From: Prevotella sp.
Lineage (GTDB): Bacteria > Bacteroidota > Bacteroidia > Bacteroidales > Bacteroidaceae
Direction: 5' to 3'
Assembly (NCBI GenBank): GCA_017475265.1
Contig: JAFVFY010000071.1
Span: 1 to 64,000 of the forward strand
Length of the DNA stretch: 64,000 nucleotides
Shown: piece after piece, positions 3,238 through 39,693 of the stretch
Numbering within the stretch: the first letter of the stretch is position 1
Layout of the letters: each line of letters begins with the position of its first letter
Notes under the pieces: generated by a model
Told to the model about the DNA's origin: nothing
Databases searched by the model: none
The model's input: only the letters and a program-made list of their open reading frames with translations
Program-made: the position numbers and the translations under genes

Positions 3238-6200
3238 ATGCATATACAAAAACTACAGGAGAAATACGCCCGTCTGCCCCAGGTGGCGGCATTGGCAAAG
3301 ACGCTGGAGAAAGGCAAGACGAAGACGATTTGTCTCGACGGTCTGCTGGCCTCCAGTGTTCCTATGGTCTTCAGTGGCCTGGCCAAGAAGACGAGCCAGA
3401 CGATTCTCTTCATCCTCCAGGATGCCGACGAGGCTGGCTATTTCTACCATGACCTCTGCCAAGTGATGGGCGAGGGTTGTGTGCTTTTCTTCCCCAGTAG
3501 CTACCGACGAGCTATCAAGTACGGGCAGAAGGATGCGGCAAACGAAATTCTGAGGACGGAAGTGCTGACGGCCATTGACTATTCATCATTGACCATTGAC
3601 CATTCGACGACACTTAGCAATAATGGTCAAAGGTCAATGGTCAATGGTCAATGTCTTTTTATCGTCTCCTACCCCGAAGCCATCGCCGAACAGGTGGTGA
3701 CACGCAAGAGTCTTGACGACCGCACGCTATCAATGACCGTTGGCGAGACCGTCAATGTGGACGATGTCTGCGAGACGTTGCGCGACTTCGGCTTCCATGA
3801 GGTGGACTACGTCTACGAGCCGGGACAGTTCGCGCTACGCGGCAGCATCCTCGATGTCTATTCCTTCAGCTGTGAATATCCCTTCCGTGTGGACTTCTTC
3901 GGCGATGACATAGACTCCATACGAACCTTCGACGTGGAGAACCAGCTGTCACGTGAGCGACGCGACCATATTGACATCGTGCCAGAGCTGACATCGGGGA
4001 GTACAGATCCCCTTGAACGGGAGTCGCTGTTTACGTTCCTGCCCGACAACACCGTACTGGCAGCCAAGGACTTCGGTTTTGTGCGTGACAGCGTGGAGAG
4101 GGCGTGGCAGGAGGGATTCTCCTCACAGGCCCTGACGGAAAGGTTGGAGAACGCCACCGAGGTGGAGGAATACCAGATACGTCAGGAGATGCACCGCGAC
4201 AGCCAGATTATTAGTGGTGCGAAATTTGAAACTGACAGCGAACCGTTCCGCAAGATTGTCATAAACCCTACCCCCCGCGAAGGGGTCGGGAGTGGGGCTG
4301 CTGGGTCTGTTTCTTTTTCTACCAGTCCCCAGCCCCTCTTCCACAAGAACTTCGACCTGCTGACGCAGACCTTGGAGGACTATCTGCTCAAGGGCTATAA
4401 GCTCTTTGTGCTAGCCGACAGCCAGAAGCAGATAGAGCGTCTGAAGGACATCCTGGCCGAGAAGTCGGGGTTGACCTTCGAAGGTGTTGACCATACCCTC
4501 CACGAGGGTTTCATCGACCATGACCTGCGCTGCTGCTTCTTCACCGACCACCAGATTTTCGACCGCTTCCACAAGTATAACCTTAAGAGCGACAAGGCCC
4601 GTGGCGGCAAGATGGCCCTCACATTGAAGGAAATCCAGCAGTTCGAACTGGGCGACTTCGTAGTCCACGTAGACCACGGTGTGGGTAAGTTCGGCGGGCT
4701 GGTGAGGATGCCGATAAATTCCGGAAACTCCGGAAGCAGCCAGCAGTACCAGGAGATGATAAAAATCATCTACCAGCGCGGCGATGCCATCTACGTCTCT
4801 ATACATTCTTTATATAAGGTGTCTAAGTACAAGGCACAGGACGGTGGCCAAGCTCCTCGGCTCTCCACACTAGGTACTGGTGCCTGGGAACGACTGAAAG
4901 AGCGCACGAAGAAACACATCAAGGACATCGCCCGCGACCTCATCAAGCTCTACGCCTCGCGCCGTCACCAGAAAGGCTTTGCCTATAGCCACGACACCTA
5001 TCTACAGCAAGAGCTGGAGGCCTCGTTCCTCTATGAGGACACCCCCGACCAGCTGAAAGCCACGCAGGATGTGAAGGCCGACATGGAGCGCCCGCAGCCT
5101 ATGGACCGTCTGGTTTGTGGCGACGTGGGCTTCGGCAAGACAGAAGTGGCCGTCCGTGCTGCCTTCAAGGCTGCCGTAGACGGGAAGCAAACAGCCGTCC
5201 TCGTGCCTACGACGGTACTGGCCTACCAGCATTTCCGTACATTTAGCAGTCGTTTGAAGAACATGCCCGTCCGTGTGGAATATCTCAGTCGCGCCCGCAG
5301 TCAGAAGCAGACCACCGCCATTCTCAAGGACTTGGAAGAAGGGAAGATAGACATCCTTATCGGCACGCACAAACTCATCGGCAAGACGGTGAAGTTCAAG
5401 GACTTGGGACTGCTCATCATCGACGAGGAACAGAAGTTCGGTGTCTCTACGAAGGAGAAGCTGCGCCAGATGAAGACCAACGTCGATACACTCACCATGA
5501 GTGCCACGCCCATCCCGCGCACCCTGCAGTTCTCCCTTGTCGGAGCCCGCGACCTGAGTGTTATACAGACGCCACCGCCCAACCGATACCCCATCCAGAC
5601 GGAGATTCATACCTTCTCGGCGGAGATTATCGCCGATGCCATCAACTTCGAGATGAGCCGCAACGGACAGGTGTTCTTTGTGAACAACCGCATCAACAAC
5701 CTGATAGAGCTGAAAGCCCTTATCCAGAAGTATGTTCCCGACTGCCGTGTGGCTATCGGTCACGGACAGATGAACCCCGAGGAGCTGGAGAAGATTGTGC
5801 TCGACTTCTCGAACTACGACTACGATGTGCTGCTCTCGACGACCATCGTGGAGAACGGCATCGACATCCCCAACGCCAACACCATCATCATCAACTCGGC
5901 GCATAACTTCGGCCTCTCCGACCTTCACCAGATGCGTGGTCGCGTGGGGCGTGGCAATCGTAAGGCTTTCTGCTACCTCCTTGCCCCGCCACTCTCAGTC
6001 CTTCCGCCGGATGCACGCCGTCGCTTGGAAGCCCTGGAGAACTTCTCCGACCTGGGCAGCGGCATCAACATCGCCATGCAAGACCTCGACATCCGTGGTG
6101 CCGGCAACATGCTCGGTTCCGAGCAGAGCGGCTTCATCTCCGACCTTGGCTACGAGACCTACCAGAAGATACTCAATGAGGCGATGGCGGAGCTGAGGAA

Positions 6201-6783
6201 CGAGAAACCCACCCCCAACCCCTCCCTAGGGGAGGGGAGTGTATATAGTTCTTCCACTAGAAAGGCTGATGACAAAACTATCCGATCCCCCCTCCCCTGG
6301 GGAGGGGAAGGGGGTGGGTTTGTCTCCGACTGCACCCTCGAATCCGACCTGGAGATGTATTTCCCCGACCAGTACGTGCCCTCCGACTCAGAGCGCATGT
6401 TGCTCTACCGCGAACTGGACAGCACCCGCGATGACCGCGAGCTGGAAGCTTACCGCCAGCGGCTCATCGACCGTTTCGGGCCATTGCCGAAACAGGCAGA
6501 GGAACTGCTCCATGTGGTTGCCCTTCGACGGTTGGGCAAGCAGCTGGGGTGCGAGAAGATTCTTCTGAAGCAGGGGCGCATGTTCCTTTACTTCGTCAGC
6601 AACATGAACAGCCCCTACTACCAGAGCGATGCCTTCGGCAGCATCATCGACTACGCCACCCAGAACGTCAGGAGATGCAACCTGCGCGAGCAGAACGGGA
6701 AACGCTCGATGGTCATCACCGATGTGCCTACAGTTGGCGAGGCCGTCACTGTCTTAAAGAAAATGTACAACATAGAAACCTAA
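3238..6783 (+). CDS. mfd: Transcription-repair coupling factor Mfd
   Basis: Mfd removes stalled RNA polymerase from DNA lesions and recruits UvrA. The 1181-residue product has the full order: UvrB-homology region (1-330), RNA polymerase interaction domain (QFELGDFVVHVDHGVGKF near 470-490), SF2 helicase with Walker A GDVGFGKTE (K634) and DEEQ (729-732), the translocation region (VAIGHGQMNPEELEK), and the C-terminal TRCF domain after residue 1040. It is slightly longer than usual because three repeat elements are inserted in frame: residues about 112-138 (ATTGACC array), 343-367 and 990-1028 (GC-rich elements). All helicase motifs are intact, so the gene is probably functional. ATG 3238 lies 3 bp after the previous stop, and the GH31 gene follows 13 bp after its own stop. 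Confidence 0.97.
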   Translation: MHIQKLQEKYARLPQVAALAKTLEKGKTKTICLDGLLASSVPMVFSGLAKKTSQTILFILQDADEAGYFYHDLCQVMGEGCVLFFPSSYRRAIKYGQKDAANEILRTEVLTAIDYSSLTIDHSTTLSNNGQRSMVNGQCLFIVSYPEAIAEQVVTRKSLDDRTLSMTVGETVNVDDVCETLRDFGFHEVDYVYEPGQFALRGSILDVYSFSCEYPFRVDFFGDDIDSIRTFDVENQLSRERRDHIDIVPELTSGSTDPLERESLFTFLPDNTVLAAKDFGFVRDSVERAWQEGFSSQALTERLENATEVEEYQIRQEMHRDSQIISGAKFETDSEPFRKIVINPTPREGVGSGAAGSVSFSTSPQPLFHKNFDLLTQTLEDYLLKGYKLFVLADSQKQIERLKDILAEKSGLTFEGVDHTLHEGFIDHDLRCCFFTDHQIFDRFHKYNLKSDKARGGKMALTLKEIQQFELGDFVVHVDHGVGKFGGLVRMPINSGNSGSSQQYQEMIKIIYQRGDAIYVSIHSLYKVSKYKAQDGGQAPRLSTLGTGAWERLKERTKKHIKDIARDLIKLYASRRHQKGFAYSHDTYLQQELEASFLYEDTPDQLKATQDVKADMERPQPMDRLVCGDVGFGKTEVAVRAAFKAAVDGKQTAVLVPTTVLAYQHFRTFSSRLKNMPVRVEYLSRARSQKQTTAILKDLEEGKIDILIGTHKLIGKTVKFKDLGLLIIDEEQKFGVSTKEKLRQMKTNVDTLTMSATPIPRTLQFSLVGARDLSVIQTPPPNRYPIQTEIHTFSAEIIADAINFEMSRNGQVFFVNNRINNLIELKALIQKYVPDCRVAIGHGQMNPEELEKIVLDFSNYDYDVLLSTTIVENGIDIPNANTIIINSAHNFGLSDLHQMRGRVGRGNRKAFCYLLAPPLSVLPPDARRRLEALENFSDLGSGINIAMQDLDIRGAGNMLGSEQSGFISDLGYETYQKILNEAMAELRNEKPTPNPSLGEGSVYSSSTRKADDKTIRSPLPWGGEGGGFVSDCTLESDLEMYFPDQYVPSDSERMLLYRELDSTRDDRELEAYRQRLIDRFGPLPKQAEELLHVVALRRLGKQLGCEKILLKQGRMFLYFVSNMNSPYYQSDAFGSIIDYATQNVRRCNLREQNGKRSMVITDVPTVGEAVTVLKKMYNIET
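3573..3652. repeat. In-frame ATTGACC/GGTCAAT inverted heptamer array in mfd
   Basis: Copies of ATTGACC on the left and of GGTCAAT on the right flank a short spacer and can pair as a hairpin. It is translated as part of Mfd (LTIDHS on the left, SMVNGQ on the right) inside the UvrB-like N-terminal region. The same array family occurs at 11100, 15001, 27465 and 39597. Confidence 0.85.
4266..4340. repeat. In-frame GC-rich palindromic element in mfd
   Basis: C-rich and G-rich runs (CCCTACCCCCC, GGGGTCGGGAGTGGGGCTG, then CCAGTCCCCAGCCCC) can form nested hairpins. The element is translated in frame as a Pro/Gly-rich segment (PTPREGVGSGAAG) that breaks otherwise conserved Mfd sequence. Confidence 0.75.
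6205..6321. repeat. 117-bp in-frame element with terminal inverted repeats in mfd
   Basis: The ends AAACCCACCCCC (6205-6216) and GGGGGTGGGTTT (6310-6321) are perfect 12-bp inverted repeats. Each is followed inward by a CCCTCCC/GGGGAGGGG hairpin. The length of 117 bp is 39 codons, so the Mfd frame is kept. It lies between the helicase core and the C-terminal TRCF domain. Confidence 0.85.
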
Positions 6784-6796
6784 ACATTGATTCATT

Positions 6797-9366: not shown

Positions 9367-10833
9367 TTACTGTCCTGTAGCCTGACGGTACTCCAAGAGT
9401 TTGTTTTGGTAGTCAGCGTAGGCATCGGTGCGGCGGTCGAGCGACTGCTGGTAAAGGAGCTGGGCTTCGAGGAGGTCGCTCATCTTCGAAGTGCCCGCAC
9501 GGTAGTAGTCGCGGTTCAGGCGGAGGTTTTCTTCGGCCTGTTCGATACTGCGCTGGGCTATCTGGAGTTGCTGACGGGCCTCCTCGACATTATTCCAGGC
9601 GTTCTGCATGCGGATGACCAGGAGTTCTGAATTGTCGGCAAGCTGTTCCTCGGCCTTCAGCTGCTCTATCTTCTTGCGCTTGATGGCATGGGAACCGCCC
9701 CACCAGTCGGAGATGGGTACGCTGACGGTGGCGAAGACCATGCCGAAGGTGCGGTCGTTATCCAGCAGGTTATGGTAGTTGTAGCCAGCACCTACGCCTA
9801 CCGTCGGCAGGTTCTTGCCTATCTCCATTTTCTTCTGTAGTTTTGTGGCTTCTACCTGCTTGTTGAGTAGCTGGTACTCGGGGAGAAGGGCAAGTGCGAC
9901 GGGTGTCAGCCTCTCAGGCTGACCAATGAACGAAACTGGTATTCGGGAAGGGGGTGAATAGTTTTGCTGATCAAGGTCGGGTGTCTCTACTTCAAAAATG
10001 TATATACTCCCCTCGCCCTCGAAGTTCCCCTCGCCTCTTGGAGAGGGGTTCTTGCCTTGCAAGCGTCTTTCGGCCGAGCGAGGGGTGAGGCTGGGGGTGA
10101 GGCCTGCGTATTGCCCCAAGAGTTGCTTCACGATGAATATTCCGTTTTGAAGCTTCAGCTTCTGACTCTCCACGTCGTTCTGGCGCAATTGCACTTGCAG
10201 CAGGTCGTTGCGCATGGCCAAGCCAGCACGGACGGCCACATCCACATCTTTATATATATCAGCCAACAGAGTCTGAACAGCCTCGATGGTTTTCATCTTC
10301 TCCTGAAGGGAGACGAGCTGCCAGTAGTACTGCTCCGTCTGCTTCTCGACCTCGTTTTCAGAAAGTTGGAGTTGCAATCGGCTGACATCCTCACCCACCT
10401 TGGCGAGACGGTTGCCGTTGATGATCTGACCTCCAGCGAAGACTGGCTGGACAGCCGATACGCCAGCTACGGTGCCGTTTTTCATCATCGAGATACTGAC
10501 AGGGCTGCCTAATGCTGCGAGCATTTCGGCGGGGAGCATCTGAGCGAGCGTGGCCCCCATCTCAGGCGAGATAAACTCTGAGGGGTTCATGTCCATCTTT
10601 GCCATCCCTTTGTTGGCATTAAACCAGAAGCCCGTACCGCGGACGGAGGGGAAGTACTTGGTGAAGGCTTCCTTACGCTGGTGCTGGGCGGCATCGATGG
10701 AGTGCCGGGCATTGCGAAGGACGATGTTGTTGTGAAGGGCAGAGTCCTTCAGTTGCTGCAGGGTGTATGTTTGGGCTGCGACAAAGTCGCAGCATACGAA
10801 ACAAAGAATGATGGATAATATTATCTTTTTCAT
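9367..10833 (-). CDS. TolC-like outer membrane efflux protein
   Basis: This is the channel component of the RND pump encoded upstream. The start is placed at ATG 10833 (MKKIILSIILCFVCC, a clear signal peptide ending VAAQ) rather than a further upstream ATG inside the TTCACTT repeat. The 488-residue product has the duplicated TolC fold: YTLQQLKDSALHNN at the mature N terminus, long amphipathic helices, and the second half ALLPEYQLLNKQVEATKLQKK, closing with QSLDRRTDAYADYQNKLLEYRQATG. Between the halves (about residues 245-305) a Pro/Gly/Arg-rich segment, PSLTPRSAERRLQGKNPSPR and onwards, is encoded by a GC-rich repeat insertion kept in frame. It is the last gene of a three-gene operon. Confidence 0.92.
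   Translation of the reverse strand: MKKIILSIILCFVCCDFVAAQTYTLQQLKDSALHNNIVLRNARHSIDAAQHQRKEAFTKYFPSVRGTGFWFNANKGMAKMDMNPSEFISPEMGATLAQMLPAEMLAALGSPVSISMMKNGTVAGVSAVQPVFAGGQIINGNRLAKVGEDVSRLQLQLSENEVEKQTEQYYWQLVSLQEKMKTIEAVQTLLADIYKDVDVAVRAGLAMRNDLLQVQLRQNDVESQKLKLQNGIFIVKQLLGQYAGLTPSLTPRSAERRLQGKNPSPRGEGNFEGEGSIYIFEVETPDLDQQNYSPPSRIPVSFIGQPERLTPVALALLPEYQLLNKQVEATKLQKKMEIGKNLPTVGVGAGYNYHNLLDNDRTFGMVFATVSVPISDWWGGSHAIKRKKIEQLKAEEQLADNSELLVIRMQNAWNNVEEARQQLQIAQRSIEQAEENLRLNRDYYRAGTSKMSDLLEAQLLYQQSLDRRTDAYADYQNKLLEYRQATGQ
9930..10110. repeat. In-frame GC-rich repeat insertion in the TolC-like gene
   Basis: The stretch contains CCCCTCGCCTC-TTGG-AGAGGGG and GAGGGGTGAGGCTGGGGGTGAGG blocks, typical of the same element family found in mfd and the nuclease-helicase. 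It codes for about 60 extra residues between the two halves of the TolC fold. The exact ends are uncertain. Confidence 0.65.
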
Positions 10834-10880: not shown

Positions 10881-13800
10881 CTGACTTTCCAATAAATGAC
10901 AGGCAGCATGGTGACGACCATGATGAGCGAGCCGATACCGCCCGCGAAGATGGTGACACCCACGGGCATCCAGAACGAGCTTTGGGCGATAATCATAGGC
11001 ACCACACCTACGGCAGTGGTGGCTGTCGTCAGGAAGATGGGCACCATGCGCCGCTTGCCAGCCTCGTAGGCGGCCTTCCTTACAACTTCGTTGTACGATT
11101 GAACATTGACGATTGAACATTGACCATTAATGGCATCCGCCTCCTTTTGCGCAACAGAATGGTCAATGGTCAATGATGAATGGTCAATGGTCAATGGTGA
11201 ATGGTCAATGATTGAGTTAGCATGCTCGAAGATCAGAATCTCGTTGCGCATAATCATTCCCATCAGGGTAATGAGTCCGAAGATAGAGGTAAGACCCAAT
11301 GCGCGGTCCATCAGTCCGAGACCAATCAGCGCACCAGGTATCATCAGCCCTAACGCCACCATACAGATGATGGTGATGCCGTATTTCTTGAAGTTGAACA
11401 ACAGGAAGAAAAACACGATGACCTCCGCAATGGTAATACCGGCAAAGATCTGTGGCAAAGCCTCGTCGCCGAATTCTATCTCGCCGCCCACCTCAGTACG
11501 AACACTTTGTGGTATCTGTATATCCTCCTGCATCATGCGAGCAATTTCTTTTTCAACAGGAGCGGTAAAAACACCTTGTGCAAACTGCGCCGTAACGGTG
11601 ATACAGCGCTCGCCACCACGATGCATAATCCTGCTCTCGCTCCATAGGGGCTGCACCTTGGCGATCTGTCGTAAAGGAACAGTGGTATTAGTGCTGTGCA
11701 GACCTCCCGATACCATCGACGCTGGCGATGCGATGCCTAGGTTCGCAATATCAGAGAAGGTCATATCAGTATCGTCCTTCACCACGATGGGCAGTTCATA
11801 ATTGCCCTCCCAAATCTGTCCGACACGCAGGTCGGAAGATGTGGCACTCAGTGCTAACTGGGCCGTAGTGCGCGTAATACCCAACTGCGCCGATGTCACA
11901 GGGTCGAGTTCTACGTTGATGATGGGGTATGGCTGGAAGTAGTCGGTATGTACCCACTCCAGTTCCGGCATCTTTCGCATACGTTCCATCAACCGCTCAG
12001 CCACGACATGCAGCGAGTCGAGATTGTCGCCATAGAAGCGATACTCCAGCTCGGGCACCTCAAGATAGTCCAAGCGCTTGAACTTCACATAGGCATTTGG
12101 GAACGCCTCGCTTAGTTGTGGCTGATACTGTGCCAACAGGTCGAGCGTGGCTTTGTCGCTCTTGGTGTTGACGATGAACTGCGCATAATTGGTACCAGCC
12201 ATCTGAGGGGCATAGGCATCCATGAATCGTGGAGACGAACAGCCAATGAAACCTGTGATGCCCGTGATGCGCTCGTCTTTTTCGAGGATGTGGCTGACGG
12301 AATCAGCCACCACTTCCGTCTCGGCCAGTCCCTTACCATCAGGCAGGAATATCTCCACCGCAAACTGGTCGCGGTCGGCGTATGGGAACAGGCGTATCTT
12401 CAGCGTGGGGGCAATGAGCGTTGACAGCAGAATGATGGCGACACCACCACCAATCGTTAGCCACGGATGAGCAAAAGTCCAATCGAGAGCCTTATCGTAT
12501 GTACGCTGCACCCATTTGGTGATGGCATTCCCGCCGGTACTCACCTTACCAGGCTTAATGATACGCGTTTCGAGGAACGGAATAACGGTAACCGCCAGCA
12601 CCAGCGACACCATCAGGTTGATGGTAATCGTCACGGGGAAATCCTCTAAACAGTCGTGGAACATGCCCTTCATCGTAATCAGGAACGGATAGAAGATGGC
12701 GCAGATGCAGATGGTGGCCAGCAGCATCGGCATGAAGTATTGGTGGCCCGACTCGATAGCGGCATCGAAGGGCTTAAAGCCTTTGCCAAGATACTCCAGA
12801 TAGCCGTCGATGACCACAATCGAGTTATCGACAATCATTCCCAACACCACAATTAGTGCCGCCAGTGTAACGATGTTCAGTTCAATGCCCATCATATACA
12901 TCACAGCCACGCTCACAAAAGTGCTCAACGGGATAGTGATGGCAGCCACGATGGCCGAACGGATGGGGAATAGCACCATCATCACCAGGATAATGATCAG
13001 CATCGATATCAGCAGGTCGCGGAGGAAGTCGCTCACACTCATCGCCACCACTTTGGGTTTGTCGGCAATACGAGTAACCTTCACATCCTCGGGAAGTTCG
13101 TTCTGGCGGAAGTCATTCAGCACCTTATCCACTTCCCGTCCGTACTGCACCACATTGTTGCCAGGCGTCATCTCCATCGACAGGAGCATACAAGGATGTC
13201 CGTCCTGCTCAATACGACTCGACATAGGCTCATATTCGCGCACCACACGGGCCACATCGCGAACACGTGCCACCTTACCCGTTGCAGGGTCGCTGAAAAT
13301 AATCTGGTTGGCAATCTCCTCTTCCGAGTTCTCCTGGGCTTCCACGTGGATGGGTATCTGTTGGTCGTCGTCGCTAATCATGCCACTCATCGTAGTGATG
13401 CCTTGTGCCTGTAGGCGCGAAAAGAGCATCTGCTGACCAATGCCGTAGGCCTGTAGGCGCTGACGGTCGATATAGAGCGATATCTGCTCCTTCTGCTCAC
13501 CGAATAGCTTGACGTTGGCCACCGACGGGATGCGGCGCAAGCGGTCACTGAGGTCATCGCTATATTGTTTCAGTTCGCGGTAACTGCGCTGGCCGCTCTC
13601 GATGGCGATGAGCAGGGCAGAGGTGTTACCAAAATCGTCGTTCACCACGATGGCCAGCACACCAGTAGGCAACTGCGCCTTGAAGCCATTCAGTCCGTGC
13701 TTGATCTTGCTCCACACCTCGTCCTTGTTGTTTACATCGTCGTTCAGACGCACCATCACGATACACAGGCCGTTCTGCGACTGCGTGGTCGTCTTCTTAC

Positions 13801-14044: not shown

Positions 14045-14101
14045 TATTTTTCGTTATTTCGTTACTTCGTTATTTCGTTATAACGTTATTTCGATATATC
14101 G
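14045..14101. repeat. 8-bp CGTTATTT array between adaptor and pump genes
   Basis: About seven successive 8-bp units (CGTTATTT, CGTTACTT, CGTTATTT, CGTTATAA, CGTTATTT, CGATATAT) fill the intergenic space between the adaptor stop and the pump start. The array is transcribed as part of the operon. Confidence 0.8.
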
Positions 14102-14110: not shown

Positions 14111-15136
14111 CTAATAAACCACTTTGGTTCCTTCACTTAGCTTCTGATAGCCATCGGTCACTACACGCTGTCCCAAGTCGAGACCTTCCGTGATGGCTAC
14201 ACGATTACCCATCGTCTCGCCAGTGCTTACTTTAGAACGGTGAGCCGTACTGTCGGCAGCCACGGTCCAGACAAACAGCGACCCATCAACCGCTTTCTGA
14301 ATACAGGTGATTGGCAGGGAGTAATCCCCCTCCCCACTCAGTGAGGGACTGGGGGTGAGGCTTACGCTGGCCACCATGCCTGGCAGCAGTTTTCGGTCTG
14401 CGTTCTGCACATTGATCCTCACCTCATAGGTATGTGTGAGCGCGTCGGCCTGTACGCCTTTCTCTATTCTGCCGCCATTCATCTGCTTCTGTGCAGCCTC
14501 TACATTGATAGTCGTGGGTGTCGATGCCGTGATGCCGCTGATTTCCGCCTCAGGGATGCTGACCTTCACCTTCACACTACTGATGTCGAGGATGGTCACC
14601 ACAGCTTGCGAGGGCAAAGCCGTCTCGCCGGCACCCACCAACTTCTTGCCGATGATGCCGCCGACAGGGGCCACGAGCCTACAATCGGCCAGGTTCTTCT
14701 TCGCCACCTCTAACTGTGACTTGGCCTGCGCCACCTTGCTCTGAATCTCCACCCACTGCACCTCGGGCAGAGAACCGTTGTCATGCAACATCTTGAAGCG
14801 CTCCAAAGCATCGTTGGCCTGCGTCATCTGTGCCTCTGCACCTGCAAGCAGGTTGCGGGCCTGCGTGTCGTCCATCTCCGCAATGAGCTGGCCACGTCCG
14901 ACGGTTTGCCCGTCGTAAACCAAGACCCGTTTCACCACACCCATACCCGTAAAGCTGACTGCCGTAGCCTCATGTTCCTCCACGATGCCCACGTATGATT
15001 GACCATTGGACATTGACGATTGACCATTAACCACCTCAGTCTTCACTCTTGTTGGAGCCTTCACTCTGTTTTCTTTTTTCTCGCCACAACTGCATACCAT
15101 TAAAATAGCCAGCAGTCCTAAAACACCTTTTTTCAT
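14111..15136 (-). CDS. RND efflux periplasmic adaptor lipoprotein
   Basis: First gene of the efflux operon, 341 residues. The N terminus MKKGVLGLLAILMVCSC has a lipobox with Cys17, so the mature protein is a lipoprotein of the membrane fusion (AcrA/HlyD) family. The body shows the barrel-sandwich halves (GMGVVKRVLVYDGQTVGRGQLI and LVAPVGGIIGKKLVGAGET), a hairpin between them, and a C-terminal beta-barrel/MP domain (TEGLDLGQRVVTDGYQKLSEG). Two repeat insertions are translated: an ATTGACC array at residues about 35-46 (VVNGQSSMSNGQSYVG) and a GC-rich element at about 258-271 (LTPSPSLSGEGDYS). Both fall in surface or linker positions. The -7 box TACTTTTG lies at 15160-15167 on the minus strand. 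Confidence 0.93.
   Translation of the reverse strand: MKKGVLGLLAILMVCSCGEKKENRVKAPTRVKTEVVNGQSSMSNGQSYVGIVEEHEATAVSFTGMGVVKRVLVYDGQTVGRGQLIAEMDDTQARNLLAGAEAQMTQANDALERFKMLHDNGSLPEVQWVEIQSKVAQAKSQLEVAKKNLADCRLVAPVGGIIGKKLVGAGETALPSQAVVTILDISSVKVKVSIPEAEISGITASTPTTINVEAAQKQMNGGRIEKGVQADALTHTYEVRINVQNADRKLLPGMVASVSLTPSPSLSGEGDYSLPITCIQKAVDGSLFVWTVAADSTAHRSKVSTGETMGNRVAITEGLDLGQRVVTDGYQKLSEGTKVVY
14325..14364. repeat. In-frame GC-rich element in the adaptor gene
   Basis: CCCCCTCCCCACTCAGTGAG followed by GGACTGGGGGTGAGG encodes the SLTPSPSLSGEGDYS segment between two strands of the adaptor. It belongs to the family seen at 4266, 6205, 10030, 24930 and 27169. Confidence 0.7.
14999..15033. repeat. 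In-frame ATTGACC heptamer array in the adaptor gene
   Basis: Five 7-bp units (ATTGACC, ATTGGAC, ATTGACG, ATTGACC, ATTAACC) are read on the minus strand as VVNGQSSMSNGQS between the lipobox and the first barrel strand. Confidence 0.85.
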
Positions 15137-27400: not shown

Positions 27401-28092
27401 AGCGAAGAGATGTCAATAAGGAAATCTGGCTCGACAATAATGATGGTAGGGGTGACCATCCCCCTTGACCATTGACCATTGACCATTGACCATTGACCAT
27501 TAGCCGTTGAACTCGCAACATGGCAGTCCAGGAGGTTAAGCTGCATACCCGGACGCAGAATTTTGCGTAAATAGGAGAAGTCACGGCCCTGCTCAGTGGT
27601 GCCATAGTCAATGGTGATGGTGCCTTCTTCGGTGTCGGCCCAGATGGTGCTGTCATCGTTGTGATGCACGATGCAGCGCACATAACGTTTGTTGATTTTC
27701 AGGCCTTTCTCCCGTAGGCGAGGCGCAGGCGGAAGCTTACGGCGCAGGCTGCCCGGCACATCCTCATGAAAGACGGCAGAGATGAAGAGAGAGACGGCAC
27801 GCACGTCGTAGAGCCACTCGCTAGGGGACGGGGATTGCAAATCCCCTATTACAGAACTTGAAGTATTACGGCGTGCCGTCTGAATCTCCTGTCGCTCTTC
27901 GTCGCTGATACCCAGCCGACGGCAAAGGAAGTCTATCTGCGAAAAGAGGTTGCCAAAGGCCCCGCGCTCGCTGCTGCAGCCTTTTGCCGCCGTTAGCGAC
28001 AAAATCTCATGCAGTTGGTGGCGCGAGACCTCTGGCGACGAATCATGCGAGACCAGTCGCTCGCAGATGTCATACAGTTCCTTGGCCTCCAT
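24484..28092 (-). CDS. Dna2-like fusion of PD-(D/E)XK nuclease and SF1 helicase
   Basis: A 1202-residue protein. A PD-(D/E)XK nuclease core is visible as GRVDLM (D394) and VEQKSGK (E405, K407), like the Cas4/RecB nuclease module of Dna2. The C-terminal part is an SF1B helicase: Walker A GPPGTGKT (K767), LAIVDEASQ, LIGDHKQLPAV, VERFQGSQRDVIIYSF and NVALTRARKQMIMVG. It lacks the four Cys residues of iron-sulphur Cas4/Dna2 as far as I can see around the nuclease. Five repeat insertions are translated within it (27465, 27169, 26478, 24930, 24751). The ATG at 28092 overlaps the GH97 TGA stop by one base, so translation is coupled to a glycosidase gene, an odd pairing. The role is inferred as DNA repair or end processing. 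Confidence 0.85.
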   Translation of the reverse strand: MEAKELYDICERLVSHDSSPEVSRHQLHEILSLTAAKGCSSERGAFGNLFSQIDFLCRRLGISDEERQEIQTARRNTSSSVIGDLQSPSPSEWLYDVRAVSLFISAVFHEDVPGSLRRKLPPAPRLREKGLKINKRYVRCIVHHNDDSTIWADTEEGTITIDYGTTEQGRDFSYLRKILRPGMQLNLLDCHVASSTANGQWSMVNGQWSRGMVTPTIIIVEPDFLIDISSLATCFTSYGHHPLLYTLNRLKPRVNNQAALLGNFAGVALDLLVHSSEPHPQPLPSEGRGEDDVQPCEGRGKDDVQPCEERVEVQRAHERCTLSAALKRAFREDILRYLACPDFDPVKFKRDAQRQMTNIAEAVDILQAEAQGHGGFLLEPSFVCEQLGLQGRVDLMTTDMSLLVEQKSGKNMKIEYQSHDSHGLQLEAHYVQLLLYYATLRYNFQRGDREVDTRLLYSRYEASRGLLAVNYYRTLLREALKLRNQIVATELLIARDGFSRILPLLNADTIYKDVPRDGYFHRYVLPELSTLNAQLSTLNSIERLYVERMMTFVYREQVAARLGSSEQRLHHSSGAASDLWLMPLDEKLETGNIYLGLTIAETQRTAPDGSYDLITLCSFSCDTASTHLTGVSNFRRGDMVYIYQYDGQPDVRRAILYKGTLSNIADGCLTVILTDGQQNAAVFNNDRPWAIEHGGSDAGTAGNIRSLFQFATADPSRRALLLGQREPQADTSIQLSQSYNPHYDDILQRIGQARDYFLLVGPPGTGKTSMALRFMVQEELAGWQGGLPLHQITNTHHPSLLLTAYTNRAVDEICDMLETAGFEYLRLGNAASCDPRFRNRLLGSVCCDSVATTPTLDGQQILLERTPIIVSTTSMLLARPFIFDIKHFSLAIVDEASQILEPGLIGLLASDCIDRFVLIGDHKQLPAVVQQGEQDSVVSEPQLRAIGLTDCRQSLFQRLYQWELSQGRSQFIGTLTHQGRMHPEVALFPSQQFYDSHLLPVPVAHQKATSLDYDVPAQDPLDDLLKSRRVLFIKTNKESNYSPPLVGEGSGVGSAFSEARLVADLLRRIHRFYGDRFDTDKTVGVIVPYRSQIAAIRAELENLKSQTSNLKSQIDDLLNISIDTVERFQGSQRDVIIYSFAVTHLYQLDFLTASCYTDEHGHVIDRKLNVALTRARKQMIMVGNPQILRHNALFSQLIQAYS
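24751..24791. repeat. In-frame GATTTGA heptamer array in the nuclease-helicase
   Basis: Units GATTTGA x3, GGTTTGA, GATTTGA, GGTTTT are read on the minus strand as NLKSQTSNLKSQIDD, in the linker between two helicase segments. Confidence 0.8.
24930..24976. repeat. In-frame GC-rich hairpin element in the nuclease-helicase
   Basis: CCCCTCCCCTACAAGGGGAGG forms a hairpin and is translated on the minus strand as NYSPPLVGEGSGVGSAF in a helicase loop. Confidence 0.8.
26478..26513. repeat. In-frame GAGTTGA heptamer array in the nuclease-helicase
   Basis: Units GAGTTGA, GAGTTGA, GCGTTGA, GGGTTGA, GAGTTCA are read on the minus strand as ELSTLNAQLSTLNS between nuclease and helicase halves. Confidence 0.8.
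27169..27272. repeat. In-frame GC-rich element with 33-bp tandem copies
   Basis: CTCGCAGGGTTG begins at 27169 and 27202 and a variant begins at 27235, an exact 33-bp (11-codon) period, followed by CCCTCACTGGGGAGGGGCTG and a G-rich tail. The translated minus strand gives repeated DDVQPCE-type peptides after PHPQPLPSEGRGE. It shows an inserted element that has itself expanded in codon multiples. Confidence 0.85.
27465..27501. repeat. In-frame ATTGACC heptamer array in the nuclease-helicase
   Basis: Five nearly perfect TTGACCA units are read on the minus strand as ANGQWSMVNGQWS, in the N-terminal region of the protein. Confidence 0.85.
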
Positions 28093-30185
28093 CAATCGTT
28101 AACAGAGGTGACGACAAAGGCTCCATTTTGGGGGATGGTGACGGCGATGTCCTTGGATTTAAAAACTGAGGGCTGGGCCTTACCGTTAAGTTGGGCGTCG
28201 TCGGTATAGGTGATGACGTTTGCCCCTTTTGCAAAGAAGGGGTTGAGGTCGAGTTTCGTCGTCACGGACTGTTCCTGGGCGTTAATGCCTACGACGTACC
28301 ACTGGTTGCCCGCACGGCGGGCCATGATGACGTAGCGACCAGGATAACCGTCGATGAAACAAGTCTCGTCCCAGTTCGTGGGCACGGCCTTCATGAACTC
28401 CACAGCCCATTCGGGAGCATCCTGCAGGTTGTTGGGAGCCATGGCGAAGTGCTGCACACTACTTTGGAAGAGCACTGCCGTGGCAAGGGCAAAAACATCG
28501 CTGGTGCGGCGCGTGGTGCCGTGCTCGTTGTCCTTGTTATAGTGCTTGTTCAGCGTGGAACCGCCGAAGTCCATCGAGGCCACTGTGTTGCGGATGAAGG
28601 GGTGTATGCAGGCGTTGAAGGCCTCAGCGTCGCAAGCTCCCTGACCGAAGTGCAGGTTCTCAGAGGCGAGCACGGCCTCGGCAGCCACAAAGTTGGGGTA
28701 CATGCGCTCCCATCCACGGGGCAGGGTGCAGCCGTGGAAGATTACCTGCAAACCGAAGTCGTTGGCGTCGGTAAGGATGTCCTCGTAGAGCTGCATCATC
28801 GGCTGCTTGTCGCCTCCGAAGAAGTCCACCTTGATGCCGAGTATGCCGTTCTTCTGCATCCAAGCCATCTCAGCGCGACGGGCGGCACTCTTGTCCAGCT
28901 TGTGGCGAGGCCCTTGCGGCGCGTCGTTCCAGGCGCCGTTGCTGTTGTACCAAAGGAAGAGACCCACGCCTCGCGACTGGGCATAGCGCGACAGCTCGGC
29001 CATCTTCTCGTAACCGATCTGCGTGTCCCAAAGCGCATCGACAAGCACCGAGCGCCAGCCCATGGCGGCAGAGAAGTCGATGTAACGCTTTTGCTCGTCA
29101 AAGTTGCACGAGGCATCCATGCCGATAATCCACGACCAGGAGCCCTTGCCGTAGCTGTAGTCCTTCGAGGCCTTGTACTTCGGTTGCACGAGGTCGTTGG
29201 CGATGGTGGTCTCCACGATGGGTTTCAGCGTAGTGCCGAGGGTGATGGTACGCCAAGGTGTTTCGCAGGGCAGGCTCACGGCAGCGGTTGTCGAGCCGTG
29301 GCCGTTCATCTCGTCCGCTTGGGGGAAGCCGATGGTGTAGGAGGTGGGGAGTTGAGGAGATGAGGAGTTGAGTAAACGGCAACCCACATAGTTGCCGTCG
29401 GTGCCAGTCTCAGAGATGAGCACCCAGATTCCCGTCTCACCAGATGGGGATGATTTGGACTTGCGGGCTATAGAAGCCCCCTCGGGGGCCGTAGGGGGGG
29501 CCATCTTGAAGAGGCACGGGAACGTATACCCCTCGCCCCAGCCGTTCTTGCCGGGCTGATCATCGAGGGTGTAGCCAGTCTCGTAGGAAGGGGCTGTGCG
29601 GGCGAAGCCAGTCATGGGCTTCATCTGCGGACAGAGGAAGGTGGTGGTGCCATTGGGGAGCATGAAGCCAGTGGCCTCGCTCTCGATGACGGCTGCCAAC
29701 GTCTCGCCGCCGCGTACTTTCTTCGGATAAATCTTATAGCGAAAGGCCACGTCGCGGCCTGTCACGCGGAAGATGACGTCGAGCGCCAGACGGTTAGGCT
29801 GACGCTCACCGCCGACTTTCTCAAAGTGGCAGACAGCCTCAGTGGCATCGTACTTCACATGGCTCTGCTTCCACGTCTTCAGCCAGTATTCGTCGCTGAA
29901 GGTTCTGACCTCACAGTCCTTCAACGTGAGGCCCTGCGTGAGATCCTCGAAGATAGCTTTCAAGCCCAGCGGCGAGCGCTCGATGACGGTTACGCCATCA
30001 AGGCTCACCTGATAGGTGGGCCGTCCGTCACGGTCGTCAACCTCTACGATGACCTTTCCGTCGGGACTGGTAATCTGCTGACTGGCACTTGCGGTGGCAA
30101 GACTGCCAACCAGTACTGAACATACTAAAACAATTCTTGCGAGCAGACTGCCGCCCGCATGGTCTTTACGGTTGTTTCTATCCAT
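28092..30185 (-). CDS. GH97 glycoside hydrolase, retaining (alpha-galactosidase-like) subgroup
   Basis: A 697-residue exported enzyme with signal peptide LLARIVLVCSVLVGSLATASA after a charged N terminus. It has the GH97 N-terminal beta-sandwich (SPDGKVIVEVDDRDGRPTYQ), the catalytic barrel with GWRSVLVDALWDTQIGYEKM and GLFLWYNSNGAWND, and a C-terminal domain. GIKVDFFGGDKQ carries Asp454 at the nucleophile position of the retaining subgroup (alpha-galactosidases), where inverting SusB-type alpha-glucosidases have no Asp. Two repeat insertions are translated near residues 228-248 (PPTAPEGASIARKSKSSPSG) and 271-279. It is coupled to the downstream nuclease-helicase gene through an overlapping TGATG. 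Confidence 0.93.
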   Translation of the reverse strand: MDRNNRKDHAGGSLLARIVLVCSVLVGSLATASASQQITSPDGKVIVEVDDRDGRPTYQVSLDGVTVIERSPLGLKAIFEDLTQGLTLKDCEVRTFSDEYWLKTWKQSHVKYDATEAVCHFEKVGGERQPNRLALDVIFRVTGRDVAFRYKIYPKKVRGGETLAAVIESEATGFMLPNGTTTFLCPQMKPMTGFARTAPSYETGYTLDDQPGKNGWGEGYTFPCLFKMAPPTAPEGASIARKSKSSPSGETGIWVLISETGTDGNYVGCRLLNSSSPQLPTSYTIGFPQADEMNGHGSTTAAVSLPCETPWRTITLGTTLKPIVETTIANDLVQPKYKASKDYSYGKGSWSWIIGMDASCNFDEQKRYIDFSAAMGWRSVLVDALWDTQIGYEKMAELSRYAQSRGVGLFLWYNSNGAWNDAPQGPRHKLDKSAARRAEMAWMQKNGILGIKVDFFGGDKQPMMQLYEDILTDANDFGLQVIFHGCTLPRGWERMYPNFVAAEAVLASENLHFGQGACDAEAFNACIHPFIRNTVASMDFGGSTLNKHYNKDNEHGTTRRTSDVFALATAVLFQSSVQHFAMAPNNLQDAPEWAVEFMKAVPTNWDETCFIDGYPGRYVIMARRAGNQWYVVGINAQEQSVTTKLDLNPFFAKGANVITYTDDAQLNGKAQPSVFKSKDIAVTIPQNGAFVVTSVND
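29350..29372. repeat. In-frame GAGTTGA-type array in the GH97 gene
   Basis: GAGTTGAGGAGATGAGGAGTTGAG-like units are read on the minus strand as LNSSSPQLPTS. It is a short, degenerate member of the heptamer family. Confidence 0.55.
29436..29502. repeat. In-frame GC-rich palindromic element in the GH97 gene
   Basis: The element contains GCCCCCTCGGGGGC (29476-29489) and a G-rich run, with flanking CCAGATGGGG and GGCCATC. It encodes the APPTAPEGASIARKSKSSPS segment inside the N-terminal sandwich. It differs in sequence from the CCCCTCCC family. Confidence 0.6.
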
Positions 30186-30258
30186 CTTACTATTAGTTTT
30201 TATGTCATTCTATGGGATTCTACTACATTAAGTGTTGTCCATGGAAAATTATACCAAT

Positions 30259-30345
30259 CTATTTTGCGTACAGTCGAGGACTTTTTGCGTATAGGCTCAA
30301 TGTATTTTGCGTATAGGCGTAAGGTATTTTGCGTATAGGCAAAAC
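30259..30345. repeat. 22-bp tandem repeat (TATTTTGCGTATAGGC)
   Basis: Four units have TTTTGCG at 30262, 30283, 30305 and 30327 (spacings 21, 22, 22). It fills the 180-bp gap between the PPTase gene end and the GH97 start. No ORF, no spacer-like unique sequence. Confidence 0.85.
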
Positions 30346-32044: not shown

Positions 32045-33241
32045 TTACAGTAGTTTCTCCAGTTCCTCCACTGGGGGTAGTAGTTTCTTCATTTTCTCGT
32101 TCATGTCGGCAGAAGTCTTGTAGGTGGCCACGCCCATAGGCTTGTCGTAGTCCTGGATGACGTACTCCACGAACTTCTTGTTGGCACTCTTGCAAAGCAG
32201 GATGCCGATGGAGGGGTTCTCGTTGGGCTTTCGCACTTCGTCATCGAGAATACGCAGATAGCCTGCCAGCTGGCCGAGGTAGGAAGTCTGGAAAGGACCG
32301 TCCTTCAACTCCACGCAGACGAGGGCAGACAGCTCGCGGTTGAAAAAAAGCAGGTCGGGGAACTGCTCCACACCAAATTTCTCCAAATGATACTGATTGC
32401 CCACGAAGGTGAAGTCACGACCGAAGGTCATAATGAAGTCTTTCACATTCTGAATGATGCCCTGCTCTATGACTCTTTCATCGCGGTCTTTTTCACGGAC
32501 GAACAGCTCCTCCGTATTGATGAAGTCGAGCAGATACTCATCCTTGAACATTGAGATGGCTCGGTAGGCCTGCAGGTTGCTGGGGATGGTCTTTCGGAAG
32601 TTATTGGGCAGCTCGCCTTGATGACTAAACAAATCATATTCCATCAACGCTTCCAATTCTTCCGTCTTTATTTTATAATCTGCGGTATATTGTATGTAGA
32701 ACTTGCGTTCCGCGTATGTTTTCACATGTGAAAGGATGGCTATATGATGCGTAAAGCTGATGCTGAGAAAGGCCACGACAGGAAAGTCTGACAAATTTAT
32801 TCGTTCCAATGAATGAATTTTGCTTTCATCTGTTAATTCGGCAGTTCGAACTGCCGAAATATTTGTTAATTCATCAGTTCGGACTGACGAATTGCTGTTA
32901 ATTTTTGTAAATTCGGCAGTTTGGACTGCCGAATTATCCTTCTCAAGGAAATTCCATTCCTCATAGAAAGTACGCATGTTCTTGATGTTTCGTGCCGAGA
33001 ACCCTTTCAGTCCCGGCAGTTCCTTCCTCAGCTGCTCGCTGATGGCCTCTATGGCGCCCTTTCCCCAGTTTTTCTTCCTCGTATTGGCAGACACATATCG
33101 TCCAATGCCGTAGTACAGGGCCAGTTGCTCCTGGTTTACGGCTCTCAGTGCCCGTTGCTGGCTCTGCAGTATGGCATCTTTTATTGCAAGAACCGCGCTG
33201 GCGAGTCCTGAGTCCAATCCTATTATACTTTCGTCTTCCAT
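32045..33241 (-). CDS. YhcG-type PD-(D/E)XK nuclease (DUF1016) with palindromic insertions
   Basis: This 398-residue protein has the two-part YhcG layout. The helical N-terminal domain (residues 1-105) has RALRAVNQEQLALYYGIGRY and FSARNIKNMRTFYEEW. The C-terminal nuclease has FPDLLFFNRELSALVCVELK (Asp...Glu-x-Lys) and GQLAGYLRILDDEV. Such proteins process branched DNA and are spread with restriction systems. Between the domains (about residues 103-145) three 22-26-bp palindromes are translated as SAVQTAEFT, SSVRTDELT and SAVRTAELT. The protein remains full-length, so the insert is a tolerated linker. It is placed between glycosidase genes, with no restriction-modification genes next to it. 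Confidence 0.9.
   Translation of the reverse strand: MEDESIIGLDSGLASAVLAIKDAILQSQQRALRAVNQEQLALYYGIGRYVSANTRKKNWGKGAIEAISEQLRKELPGLKGFSARNIKNMRTFYEEWNFLEKDNSAVQTAEFTKINSNSSVRTDELTNISAVRTAELTDESKIHSLERINLSDFPVVAFLSISFTHHIAILSHVKTYAERKFYIQYTADYKIKTEELEALMEYDLFSHQGELPNNFRKTIPSNLQAYRAISMFKDEYLLDFINTEELFVREKDRDERVIEQGIIQNVKDFIMTFGRDFTFVGNQYHLEKFGVEQFPDLLFFNRELSALVCVELKDGPFQTSYLGQLAGYLRILDDEVRKPNENPSIGILLCKSANKKFVEYVIQDYDKPMGVATYKTSADMNEKMKKLLPPVEELEKLL
32835..32936. repeat. Three in-frame palindromes in the YhcG-type gene
   Basis: The first copy contains a perfect 22-bp palindrome (32837-32858, half-site TTCGGCAGTTC). Related palindromes start at 32868 and 32910. The copy-to-copy distances, 33 and 42 bp, are both codon multiples. 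Confidence 0.9.
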
Positions 33242-35876: not shown

Positions 35877-35890
35877 GCTTTATATTTTTT

Positions 35891-38451: not shown

Positions 38452-38496
38452 AATTTTATAGTTAGATGATTAATTAGCAACGGATTATAACTGACA

Positions 38497-39693
38497 TTAC
38501 TGTTTCGTTTTTAAAAACTCTGCGGCATATTCACCCATGACGCGGTAGCCCTCGGCGTTCAGATGGAGCCAGTCCTCGCTAAGCTCTTTCTTAAGCTTTT
38601 CACGGTCGGAGGGGTCACGGGTCAGTTCGTCGAAGTCAATCACGCCGTCAAACTCTCCGCTGGTGCGAATCCATTCGTTCACATCCTGGCGGGCAGCCTC
38701 GTGGTAGGGCGAGTACCACCCGTTGCCTTTGAAGGCGGTGATGGTGGCTCCGTAGACCTTCTTGATGCCAGCCTCACGGGCTTTCTTAATGAGTGTCTTG
38801 TAGGCTTCTTTCAGCTCCTTGGCCGTATTCTCGGCATGAGGCGAAGTGCCGATGTCATTGGTTCCCTGGAAAATGATGAGGCGGTCAACGTTCTTCTGTC
38901 CGAGTATGTCACGGTCAAAGCGCTTCATAGCCGGCTCGGAGAGTCCACCTCGCACTACGCAGTTGCCACCGATTCCGAGGTTTAGCACGCCGCAGTCCAG
39001 GTTGGCAGCCATCTGGTCGGGCCAGCGATTCTGCAGGTTTGTTGTGCTGCCACGCCCGTCGGTAATGCTGTTGCCCAGCACGGCAACGGCCTTCACCTGT
39101 CCGTCGGTGCGCACGTTCAGCTGCGCTATGCTGTACCAGTGATCCAGCTTCTCTGCCGTCTCGAACTTCTTCTTCGCCGCAATCTGTCCTGTGGCAATGA
39201 AGCTTGTGGTGCGCGAGCCACGATGCGAAGTCATGTTCACTGGCACCTCCCCATAGCAGATGGTGACGGCCAAGCGCTGCCGAGGTTTCAACTTGTAGGC
39301 GAAATTGTCGCTCATGGCCGTCTCGCCCGGGGCGATGGTCACGCTCTTCTGTCCACCGAACTTCAGTTCCTTAACCGTCTTGCGGTCGATGTCGCAAGAG
39401 TCCAACGCGTCGGCCACGTAGATGCTCTTGATTTCTACCGGCTCCTTGCTGAACTCATTGCTCAGCTGCAGCTGCAACTCCTCGCCGCCGATGCTCACCT
39501 GGATAATCTCGCGGAGTGTGTTGCCGGCGAGGCTCATGCGCGGCATGTCGCCCCGTCCCGTCCACTCTGCCGCAGCAGCCCAGGTGCCAGTAAAATCATT
39601 GACCATTGAAGATTGACCATTGACCCCCTGTGCGCTCAGGCTCATAGTGGCTGCCATCATGACAGCACACAGAATAGTACATTTCTTCATCAT
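38497..39693 (-). CDS. Secreted SGNH/GDSL-family esterase
   Basis: A 398-residue exported protein with signal peptide MMKKCTILCAVMMAATMSLSA. It has an N-terminal jelly-roll-like domain (residues about 35-200) and a C-terminal SGNH hydrolase: VLGNSITDG (block I Ser), GIGGNCV, FQGTNDIG and the catalytic pair in DWLHLNAEG. In this context (xylanase, pentoside transporter, GH43) it is probably an acetyl-xylan esterase, though the family includes other deacetylases. Immediately after the signal peptide an ATTGACC array is translated as GVNGQSSMVND. The -7 box TATTTTTG lies at 39721-39728 on the minus strand. Confidence 0.9.
   Translation of the reverse strand: MMKKCTILCAVMMAATMSLSAQGVNGQSSMVNDFTGTWAAAAEWTGRGDMPRMSLAGNTLREIIQVSIGGEELQLQLSNEFSKEPVEIKSIYVADALDSCDIDRKTVKELKFGGQKSVTIAPGETAMSDNFAYKLKPRQRLAVTICYGEVPVNMTSHRGSRTTSFIATGQIAAKKKFETAEKLDHWYSIAQLNVRTDGQVKAVAVLGNSITDGRGSTTNLQNRWPDQMAANLDCGVLNLGIGGNCVVRGGLSEPAMKRFDRDILGQKNVDRLIIFQGTNDIGTSPHAENTAKELKEAYKTLIKKAREAGIKKVYGATITAFKGNGWYSPYHEAARQDVNEWIRTSGEFDGVIDFDELTRDPSDREKLKKELSEDWLHLNAEGYRVMGEYAAEFLKTKQ
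39597..39625. repeat. In-frame ATTGACC heptamer array in the SGNH gene
   Basis: Units CATTGAC, CATTGAA, GATTGAC, CATTGAC are read on the minus strand as VNGQSSMVND directly after the signal peptide cleavage site. Confidence 0.85.

Follow-up and report, generated by a model that had tools for sequence, protein, structure and literature searches.

Heptamer arrays and hairpin elements inside protein genes of a rumen Prevotella, read as coding repeats

Introduction

Rickettsia palindromic elements (RPEs) are palindromic, lie in frame in protein genes, encode a conserved peptide and occur in unrelated metabolic genes; 44 of them are quoted for R. conorii in the available part of a review (PMC10969869). 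Heptamers are over-represented in bacteria, and the heptameric SSRs of Xanthomonas and Nostoc (GGGAATC, GGGGA(C/T)T) occur as heterogeneous copies, some in convergent inverted pairs, and are under-represented in coding regions (PMC4692102, accessible sections). The direct repeat TAACTGA is found in Beggiatoaceae, cyanobacteria and a few Bacteroidetes, mostly between genes. Read one way it gives a stop in all frames and the other way it is open; some copies in ORFs are of the reverse kind, and most in-gene copies sit close to the ends of proteins or in hypothetical ones (PMC4679880, accessible sections). For REP/BIME with RAYT (TnpA-REP), the available part of PMC6006769 describes Y1 subclasses with atypical hairpins in Bacteroidetes.

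Here we describe short repeats in a rumen Prevotella genome and in one 64,000-nucleotide stretch of it (contig JAFVFY010000071.1, hereafter the window). Like RPEs, they lie in frame inside unrelated genes, with a preferred reading frame and a similar peptide in different genes. Unlike RPEs, they have a Prevotella host, heptamer- or CCCTCCC-armed hairpins and a very variable length, the likeness being drawn on features; they seem more numerous than the RPEs of R. conorii (44 quoted in the available text of PMC10969869). The arrays resemble heptameric SSR/STRR in having a tandem 7-bp unit at many loci, and those of Xanthomonas and Nostoc in their heterogeneous copies, some in convergent inverted pairs, but lack a G-rich quadruplex-type unit. 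With TAACTGA they share a 7-bp unit with TGA that gives a stop one way and is open the other, whereas that system has one fixed, mostly intergenic heptamer and Prevotella has many, in core enzymes. Dispersed short GC-rich hairpins and inverted pairs recall REP/BIME, but many of ours lie within genes, and flanking CCCTCCC elements were not seen at the Y1 gene examined (one of three matches). The CCCTCCC elements have terminal inverted repeats, as in a MITE. By analogy, we read the system as RPE-like coding repeats in Bacteroidota.

Materials and Methods

The sample comprised 801 kb (17% of the genome) in stretches mostly picked around repeats. Genes were called with our own codon-usage script, which demands an open ORF, so that the absence of stops in genes is no evidence in itself. 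The assembly consists of 135 contigs, and the majority of the named relatives are MAGs.

Results

Distribution and orientation of heptamer arrays

In the 801 kb we found 192 heptamer arrays, 65 intergenic, 33 at gene ends and 94 within called genes; set against the coding under-representation in Xanthomonas and Nostoc, this in-gene share is high in number, yet the density is lower in genes (0.142 per kb) than between them (0.471 per kb). A period of 7 was typical: 54 such arrays were detected in 418 kb, versus none of period 6 and six of period 8, while 261 kb from 20 genomes of other Bacteroidales contained two. All six first-order Markov shuffled sets gave no period-7 array, which excludes a chance origin. 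TTGACCA, TTGAGAG and similar units, not G-rich, were the commonest, and TAACTGA was absent among the period-7 consensus units listed.

The orientation of in-gene arrays was strongly biased, with 67 in the stop-free and 18 in the stop orientation (p = 8e-8); the same bias was revealed in a second sample of 80 relatives (49:13, p = 5e-6). Eleven TTGACCA arrays within genes are read in the stop direction; in all of them the stop position holds other codons, and 23 of these 25 were TCN (15 TCA), which suggests a coding-competent ancestor.

Array length was less telling. When arrays of 35 nt or more were sorted by their number of whole units modulo 3 (2/1/0), internal ones gave 39/21/13 and intergenic ones 30/11/23, and length modulo 21 showed neither a clear lattice nor a clear difference between genes and spacers. 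The same sorting applied to all own arrays gave, for remainders 1/2/0, 63/21/10 (internal) and 31/21/13 (intergenic); it was set aside because the score threshold dominates it. The sequence-only reading had proposed that selection keeps only codon-multiple insertions. The two orientation biases and the frame preference of the CCCTCCC hairpins agree with selection for readable copies; the codon-multiple rule is implied by the open frames alone, since the modulo-21 lengths give no clear signal.

Hairpin families

Neighbouring TTGACCA arrays were convergent in 12 cases, direct in one and divergent in none. Nine of 11 convergent TTGACCA/TGGTCAA hairpins were inside called genes, all read alike. 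The flanks of the 55 TTGACCA arrays that measure 20 nt or more showed no common motif except partner arms and some loops, and a conserved flank was sought around single arrays and none was seen. GCTGCGC-type loop motifs were limited to a subset of hairpins. It should be mentioned that the loops are very divergent, so that the copies need not all descend from one ancestor.

Most of the 22 CCCTCCC pairs end in ACCCACCCCC...GGGGGTGGGT as terminal inverted repeats. One codon frame was preferred at their left (11/13, p = 2e-4) and right ends (15/19, p = 6e-5), and their centre peptides are alike across different genes and in Mfd of relatives. Thus, convergent TTGACCA hairpins and CCCTCCC hairpins behave as coding elements. 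A 22-bp palindrome, initially counted as a third family with the same in-gene habit, is not supported as a repeat family: its two strict matches in 801 kb both lie within the YhcG gene of the window, which leaves two families shown to share the habit.

Repeat-bearing genes of the window

Pfam matches and open frames bore out that conserved, uninterrupted genes of the window contain repeat DNA (Table 1).

Table 1. Repeat segments in protein genes of the window
Gene	Feature	Positions	Strand	Remark
mfd, site 1	convergent TTGACCA/TGGTCAA hairpin	3570..3655	+	peptide IDYSSLTIDHS-TTLSN-NGQRSMVNGQ
mfd, site 2	GC-rich hairpin segment	about 4266..4297	+	loop holding other repeats in some relatives
mfd, site 3	paired CCCTCCC hairpin element	6208..6318 (ends approximate)	+	peptide PTPNPSLGEGS...SPLPWGGEGGG
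TolC-like OEP gene	GC hairpin	10028..10047	-	compared with one same-genome paralogue only
RND pump	convergent TTGACCA hairpin	11095..11213	-	peptide IDHSPLTIDHSSLTIDHS-VAQKEADA-INGQCSIVNVQ
Adaptor	GC hairpin	14328..14347	-	no net insertion block versus 19 orthologues
Adaptor	TGGTCAA array (VNGQSSMSNGQ)	14995..15034	-	replaces native loop
Nuclease-helicase	CAAATCT array (LKSQTSNLKSQ)	24751..24790	-	
Nuclease-helicase	GC hairpin (SPPLVGEGSGVGS)	24947..24967	-	
Nuclease-helicase	CAACTCT array (LSTLNAQLST)	26480..26513	-	no net insertion block
Nuclease-helicase	CCCTCCC hairpin and 33-bp duplication (PHPQPLPSEGRGEDDVQPCEGRGKDDVQPC)	27168..27248	-	
Nuclease-helicase	TGGTCAA array (NGQWSMVNGQW)	27461..27505	-	
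GH97	CTCAACTC-type array	29339..29372	-	net gain at most 4 aa
GH97	GC hairpin segment (PPTAPEGASIARKSKSSPS)	29442..29498	-	
YhcG nuclease	three palindromic repeat copies, DUF1016_N region	32831..32937	-	one homologue compared
SGNH esterase	TGGTCAA array just past putative signal peptide	39594..39625	-	

In alignments of Mfd, the helicase and the RND pump the repeat segments sit at length-variable positions, and some of these loops are repeat hotspots. One Mfd loop holds a TTGACCA hairpin in the window and a CCCTCCC element in the nearest relative, the 89%-identical L038. The element at Mfd site 3 has counterparts of its kind at the corresponding position in relatives including L038, L039 and L040; it is therefore old or recurrent and not private. 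Orthologues in distant genera with the same peptide at the same position had been named beforehand as refuting the sequence-only reading; such sharing was encountered in part, at one Mfd site and within the genus.

The 19-residue block of the RND hairpin was found only in the window among 30 alignment rows. An RND piece in genome G074 has an internal TGA, and the copy in G023 is split across two frames; no link to repeats was traced in either. In the helicase (1203 aa), credited with five insertions, three of the sites are heptamer arrays and two are GC-hairpin segments. At four sites the window sequence is longer, with extra residues of unrelated sequence in 0 to 5 of the other rows, while the array at 26480-26513 shows no net insertion block (30 rows). 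In GH97 the 19-aa GC-hairpin segment is missing in both homologues covering that region. The adaptor contains no window-only block of at least 4 aa (20 rows); its TGGTCAA array is one residue longer than the native loop in 18 of 19 orthologues and of equal length in one. The word insertion suits some sites, while elsewhere native loop residues were replaced, as in the adaptor array. A PADLOC scan matched YhcG and the helicase to candidate-defence (PDC-S02) and MkoA/MkoC helicase entries.

Discussion

Our preferred reading, with a probability of roughly 0.6, is that the genome is loaded with translatable selfish or neutral repeats, both heptamer arrays and hairpin elements, that are filtered by purifying selection. 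The tandem arrays, whose 7-bp units often have a TGA core, would lengthen and shorten by 7-bp steps, probably through polymerase slippage, and heptamer pieces may also be copied between places, as the favourite units characteristic of each genome suggest. The hairpin elements, with convergent TTGACCA/TGGTCAA arms or as CCCTCCC pairs, would disperse in a form that can be translated, much as RPEs do. Insertion and loop replacement would hit genes and spacers alike, and purifying selection would spare in-frame, stop-free copies in length-tolerant loops, the repeats being presumably selfish or neutral. Some results weigh against this reading: array lengths modulo 21 without a clear difference between genes and spacers, the lack of a common flank motif, the divergent loops, the weak bias of intergenic orientation, and the many array matches in genomes where no Y1 was detected.

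Arrays might instead grow on site from chance repeats, without dispersal, the replicative polymerase setting the 7-bp step and base composition making arrays alike. Such purely local slippage would suit the broad distribution of period-7 or TCA/ACT-spaced heptamers in the genus and the order, the unrelated flanks of single arrays and the polymerase-slippage hypothesis for heptameric repeats cited in the accessible sections of PMC4692102. However, identical unit pairs amount to 8.9% within the genome versus 2.3% after permutation, TTGACCA x3, with up to one mismatch, matches this genome 211 times and is missing from 49 of 59 relatives, convergent hairpins recur, and 11 arrays share the same serine solution; we regard local slippage alone as possible but doubtful. 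The likeness of units above permutation, together with 940 four-unit matches genome-wide, supports the process creating or spreading repeats that had been supposed from the window. It is conceivable, if unlikely, that one structure-guided, sequence-independent copying process plants translatable hairpin DNA in length-tolerant gene loops across rumen Prevotella. Heptamer and CCCTCCC hairpins would then be alternative cargoes of that process, which would account for the same Mfd loop differing between sister species, and, if real, it would keep supplying a free-living bacterium with new protein segments.

A regulatory or translational role, with arrays serving as binding sites or all-frame stop signals and in-gene copies as by-products, seems improbable. 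TAACTGA arrays near start codons have been proposed as translational regulators (PMC4679880, accessible sections), and intergenic arrays between co-directional genes lean weakly to the stop-containing orientation (26 versus 14, p = 0.08); yet about half of the arrays lie in genes, units vary widely inside one genome, and some relatives have almost no arrays. An assembly or binning artefact, with the repeats being chimeric or collapsed MAG sequence, could be suspected from the fragmented assembly and the prevalence of MAGs among relatives, but is very improbable: the pattern recurs across independent MAGs, and of four single-contig genomes sampled, two contain period-7 arrays, at 6 (G069) and 5 (G141) per 100 kb, and two contain none.

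RAYT as mover of CCCTCCC elements gained no support: of three Y1 matches in the genome the only one examined (C37) is flanked by a different hairpin, with motifs rare in the sample. Genomes with a Y1 transposase tend to have more arrays (median 146 versus 39 matches), although genome size and completeness confound this comparison. At least 100 array matches were nevertheless present in 21 of the 62 genomes in which no Y1 was detected, and thus Y1 is not required for arrays. A reverse transcriptase as a telomerase-like heptamer source was unsupported; the genome gives four RVT_1 matches in three places.

Rickettsia have small populations and decaying genomes, which could explain their tolerance of coding palindromes. 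To our knowledge, which here includes the available part of PMC10969869, known coding palindromes come mainly from that genus. A gut member of Bacteroidota in which 8.5% of called genes contain repeat-encoded segments (19/223 in stretches not picked for heptamers; 22/260 with the window included) offers a natural experiment on (i) which loops tolerate new sequence, (ii) how 7-bp slippage works and (iii) whether such segments gain function. Annotators and structure modellers should bear in mind that a loop restricted to one species may consist of repeat DNA. The hosts of in-gene repeats include Mfd, RsmH, UvrA and PurB, and outside the window the repeat-bearing genes of the sample cover DNA repair, rRNA methylation and purine synthesis.

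Heptamer arrays in Prevotella genomes

The occurrence of short repeats inside genes, proposed in the sequence-only reading of the window, is real, strong and broad, and Prevotella in-gene repeats are a new form of coding repeats; listings from full-text searches of open-licence papers showed no account of Prevotella heptamers within genes or of Prevotella coding palindromes. The window is C105:1-64000, part of a genome (4.75 Mb, 135 contigs) that is 99% complete. Tandem Repeats Finder revealed period-7 arrays at most sites that had been named in the window. In 418 kb of the genome (the window and 20 stretches picked around CCCTCCC matches or as contig starts) 54 arrays had period 7 and six had period 8, with none of period 6. 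A further 383 kb picked around TTGACCA matches contained 73 period-7 arrays; the sampled stretches are non-random, and the TTGACCA-picked ones exaggerate density.

To this we added 1,610 kb around the Mfd gene of 80 relatives, the best of 536 found: nearly all are labelled Prevotella/Prevotellaceae (one only 'uncultured bacterium'), and they are in the main MAGs, many ruminant-derived, with a complete genome of Prevotella communis among them. RGIG9954, from yak reticulum, is the closest (locus L038; 89% identity over aligned Mfd residues). Here 155 arrays had period 7, one period 6 and 29 period 8; two period-7 arrays were present in 261 kb sampled across 20 further genomes of the order. Repeats are present beyond chance: all six sets of first-order Markov shuffles were free of period-7 arrays. 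Assembly error is an unlikely cause, because two of four single-contig genomes, 100 kb each, carry six and five period-7 arrays (the other two, none).

The four-unit pattern TCA(N4)TCA(N4)TCA(N4)TCA had 940 matches in the window's genome. Of 150 genomes of the genus that were searched, this one among them, 137 had at least one match; the other 149 had a median of 87, and 107 of them had at least 20. At the order level, 115 of 149 genomes (own included) had a match. TGA is a frequent array core, with TGA/TCA in 63% of the 155 units of the Mfd set vs 28% expected from shuffled units, but it is not universal, since the backward ACT control is likewise frequent in many genomes. The TTGACCA unit is local: 10 of 59 relatives match three units at no more than one mismatch. 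Within a genome, units resembled each other more than after permutation (mean distance 2.22 vs 2.60; identical pairs 8.9% vs 2.3%), and none of 1000 permutations was as extreme.

Arrays inside genes and their reading direction

Genes were called with our own codon-usage ORF caller (505 genes, 86% coding). Counted beyond the window, as had been proposed, arrays are numerous both inside and between genes: 192 in 801 kb of the genome, 94 internal, 65 intergenic, 29 at N-ends and four at C-ends. In the set not picked for TTGACCA, density was about three times higher between genes (0.471 vs 0.142 per kb), and internal arrays occurred in 22 of 260 genes (19 of 223 if window genes are excluded), compared with 36 of 245 in the TTGACCA-picked set. 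A Pfam family was matched by 36 of 37 proteins scanned (window genes and array hosts together). Hosts, as read from Pfam domains, include Mfd, RND, pseudouridine synthase, a MiaB/RimO-like radical SAM enzyme, RsmH, RNA uracil methyltransferase, UDP-GlcNAc epimerase, Tex, adenylosuccinate lyase (PurB), UvrA, CbiG, P-type ATPase and peptidase M3. Five internal arrays apiece were counted in L149:9303-18311 (a gene of about 3000 codons) and L146:2542-12042 (about 3170 codons). In L162, four called genes have similar AT-rich TTATTGG arrays (4736, 8144, 12128, 13942) some 17 codons after their start; these may be leader sequence or miscalled starts.

All three frames of a heptamer array consist of the same seven codons; therefore, a TGA unit is closed one way and open the other. 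Selection for readable copies is supported by orientation. Of the internal arrays in which just one direction contains a stop, 67 were stop-free in sense vs 18 stop-sided (p 8e-8), compared with 14 vs 26 between co-directional genes; the 80-genome Mfd set gave 49 vs 13 (p 5e-6), with a further 36 of the 98 internal arrays lacking a stop in either direction. In-gene TTGACCA arrays 20 nt or longer were stop-free in 36 cases and lay in the stop direction in 11, where the stop position was occupied by TCN in 23 of 25 codons (15 TCA), TTA in one and TAC in one. Eight one-base changes can remove TGA; that serine nevertheless recurs suggests that a coding-competent TTGACCA version spread. Mfd stretches had a length divisible by three in 80 of 80 cases and were stop-free in 78, in a search that favoured intact copies; those of L038 and L104 have one stop each, within the last few codons.

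Hairpin elements

Where two neighbouring TTGACCA arrays were separated by less than 120 bp, they were convergent in 12 cases (one doubtful, with a 96-bp gap), divergent in none and direct in one. An exact genome-wide search for convergent arms gave 11 matches at 10 places, some loops sharing GCTGCGC. Nine of 11 such hairpins in the sample lie inside called genes, reading (I)DHS..LTIDH-loop-NGQ.S.VNGQ or close variants.

A loose CCCTCCC motif, which lets in some chance matches, gave 73 hairpins, as 22 pairs (11 in genes, seven at edges, four intergenic) and 29 singles (25 in genes, four intergenic). With a stricter end motif, one codon frame was used in genes by 11 of 13 left and 15 of 19 right ends, paired ends being non-independent. 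Stops alone do not explain this preference, because the remaining frames are likewise open in the examples seen; we infer that PPP runs, encoded by one alternative frame, may be avoided. Centre peptides recur across genes and species: IYSQ(A/T)Q...VTTPLP is shared by two genes of the window's genome and the Mfd proteins of L038 and L039. A further palindrome, CACGCTGGGAAGCGTG, had 27 matches in the sample (both motif strands), 20 of them within called genes of stretches L168 and L150.

Comparison with orthologues

Several individual examples of the sequence-only reading had to be corrected. In Mfd, 18 of 79 rows, the window included, have at least five extra residues in the loop after residue 118, many repeat-like; L038, with near-identical flanks, has a CCCTCCC-type element where the window has a TTGACCA hairpin. 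The check that had been proposed was whether the segments are absent from close orthologues. A 19-residue block of the RND hairpin is present in the window only among 30 rows (the remainder aligns with a variable native loop). At Mfd site 3 (residues ~990-1030), several relatives have CCCTCCC-type elements and L043 a different repeat. A search for the helicase found matches in 98 of 120 genomes; in the alignment of the window with the best 29 other loci, the window has extra residues at four of its five repeat sites, and relatives bear their own heptamers (TTCACTC-type at several sites of L205, CTCAACA-type in L207).

A 20-row alignment of the adaptor contained no window-only block; its array stands in place of a native loop, and 18 of 19 orthologues have that loop shorter by one residue. 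In GH97, a 19-residue segment is missing from two homologues, and the second site amounts to at most four residues. The comparison was with one paralogue of the same genome for TolC and one homologue for YhcG. In the YhcG relative from genome G006 (L180 18948-20000), the corresponding region contains a repeated segment of its own, NRSPMAND.

Possible mechanisms

Particular repeats are dispersed and tolerated in genes, with orientation and frame bias and loop hotspots. Heptamer arrays would change by 7-bp slippage, a hypothesis quoted for heptameric repeats (PMC4692102); short repeat pieces would be copied from place to place, and hairpins may move in a manner like that of Rickettsia palindromic elements. 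No mover was found. Genomes with a Y1 match had more array matches than those without (median 146 vs 39, p 6e-5; 87 vs 62 genomes), and 21 of the 62 without had at least 100. The strongest Y1 match, on contig C37, resembles class-1.2 motifs (DHVH, YIRNQKEHH) tabulated in PMC6006769, and the hairpins flanking it differ from the repeat elements described here. This Y1/TnpA-like gene of the DHVH...YIRNQKEHH type (L035:1486-1941) has GC-rich hairpins on both sides (GCCCCGAAGGGGC...GGGGGTGCAAGCCCCCGG). Reverse-transcriptase-domain matches (L269, L270, L271, L272) occur at three places in the genome.

Other repeats in the window

The paired C-terminal repeats of two proteins are dockerin-like.

Further repeats located in the window
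Feature	Position	Context
21-bp unit, 13 copies	42967-43240	inside ORF 42127-43380
22-bp imperfect tandem array	16316-16441	intergenic
22-bp imperfect tandem array	30255-30340	intergenic
8-bp array TTTCGTTA	14049-14101	short RND-adaptor gap
Protein with C-terminal paired repeats DVNGDGAIDVADIS	1166-3235	
Protein with C-terminal paired repeats DVNGDGAIDVADIS	16498-18048
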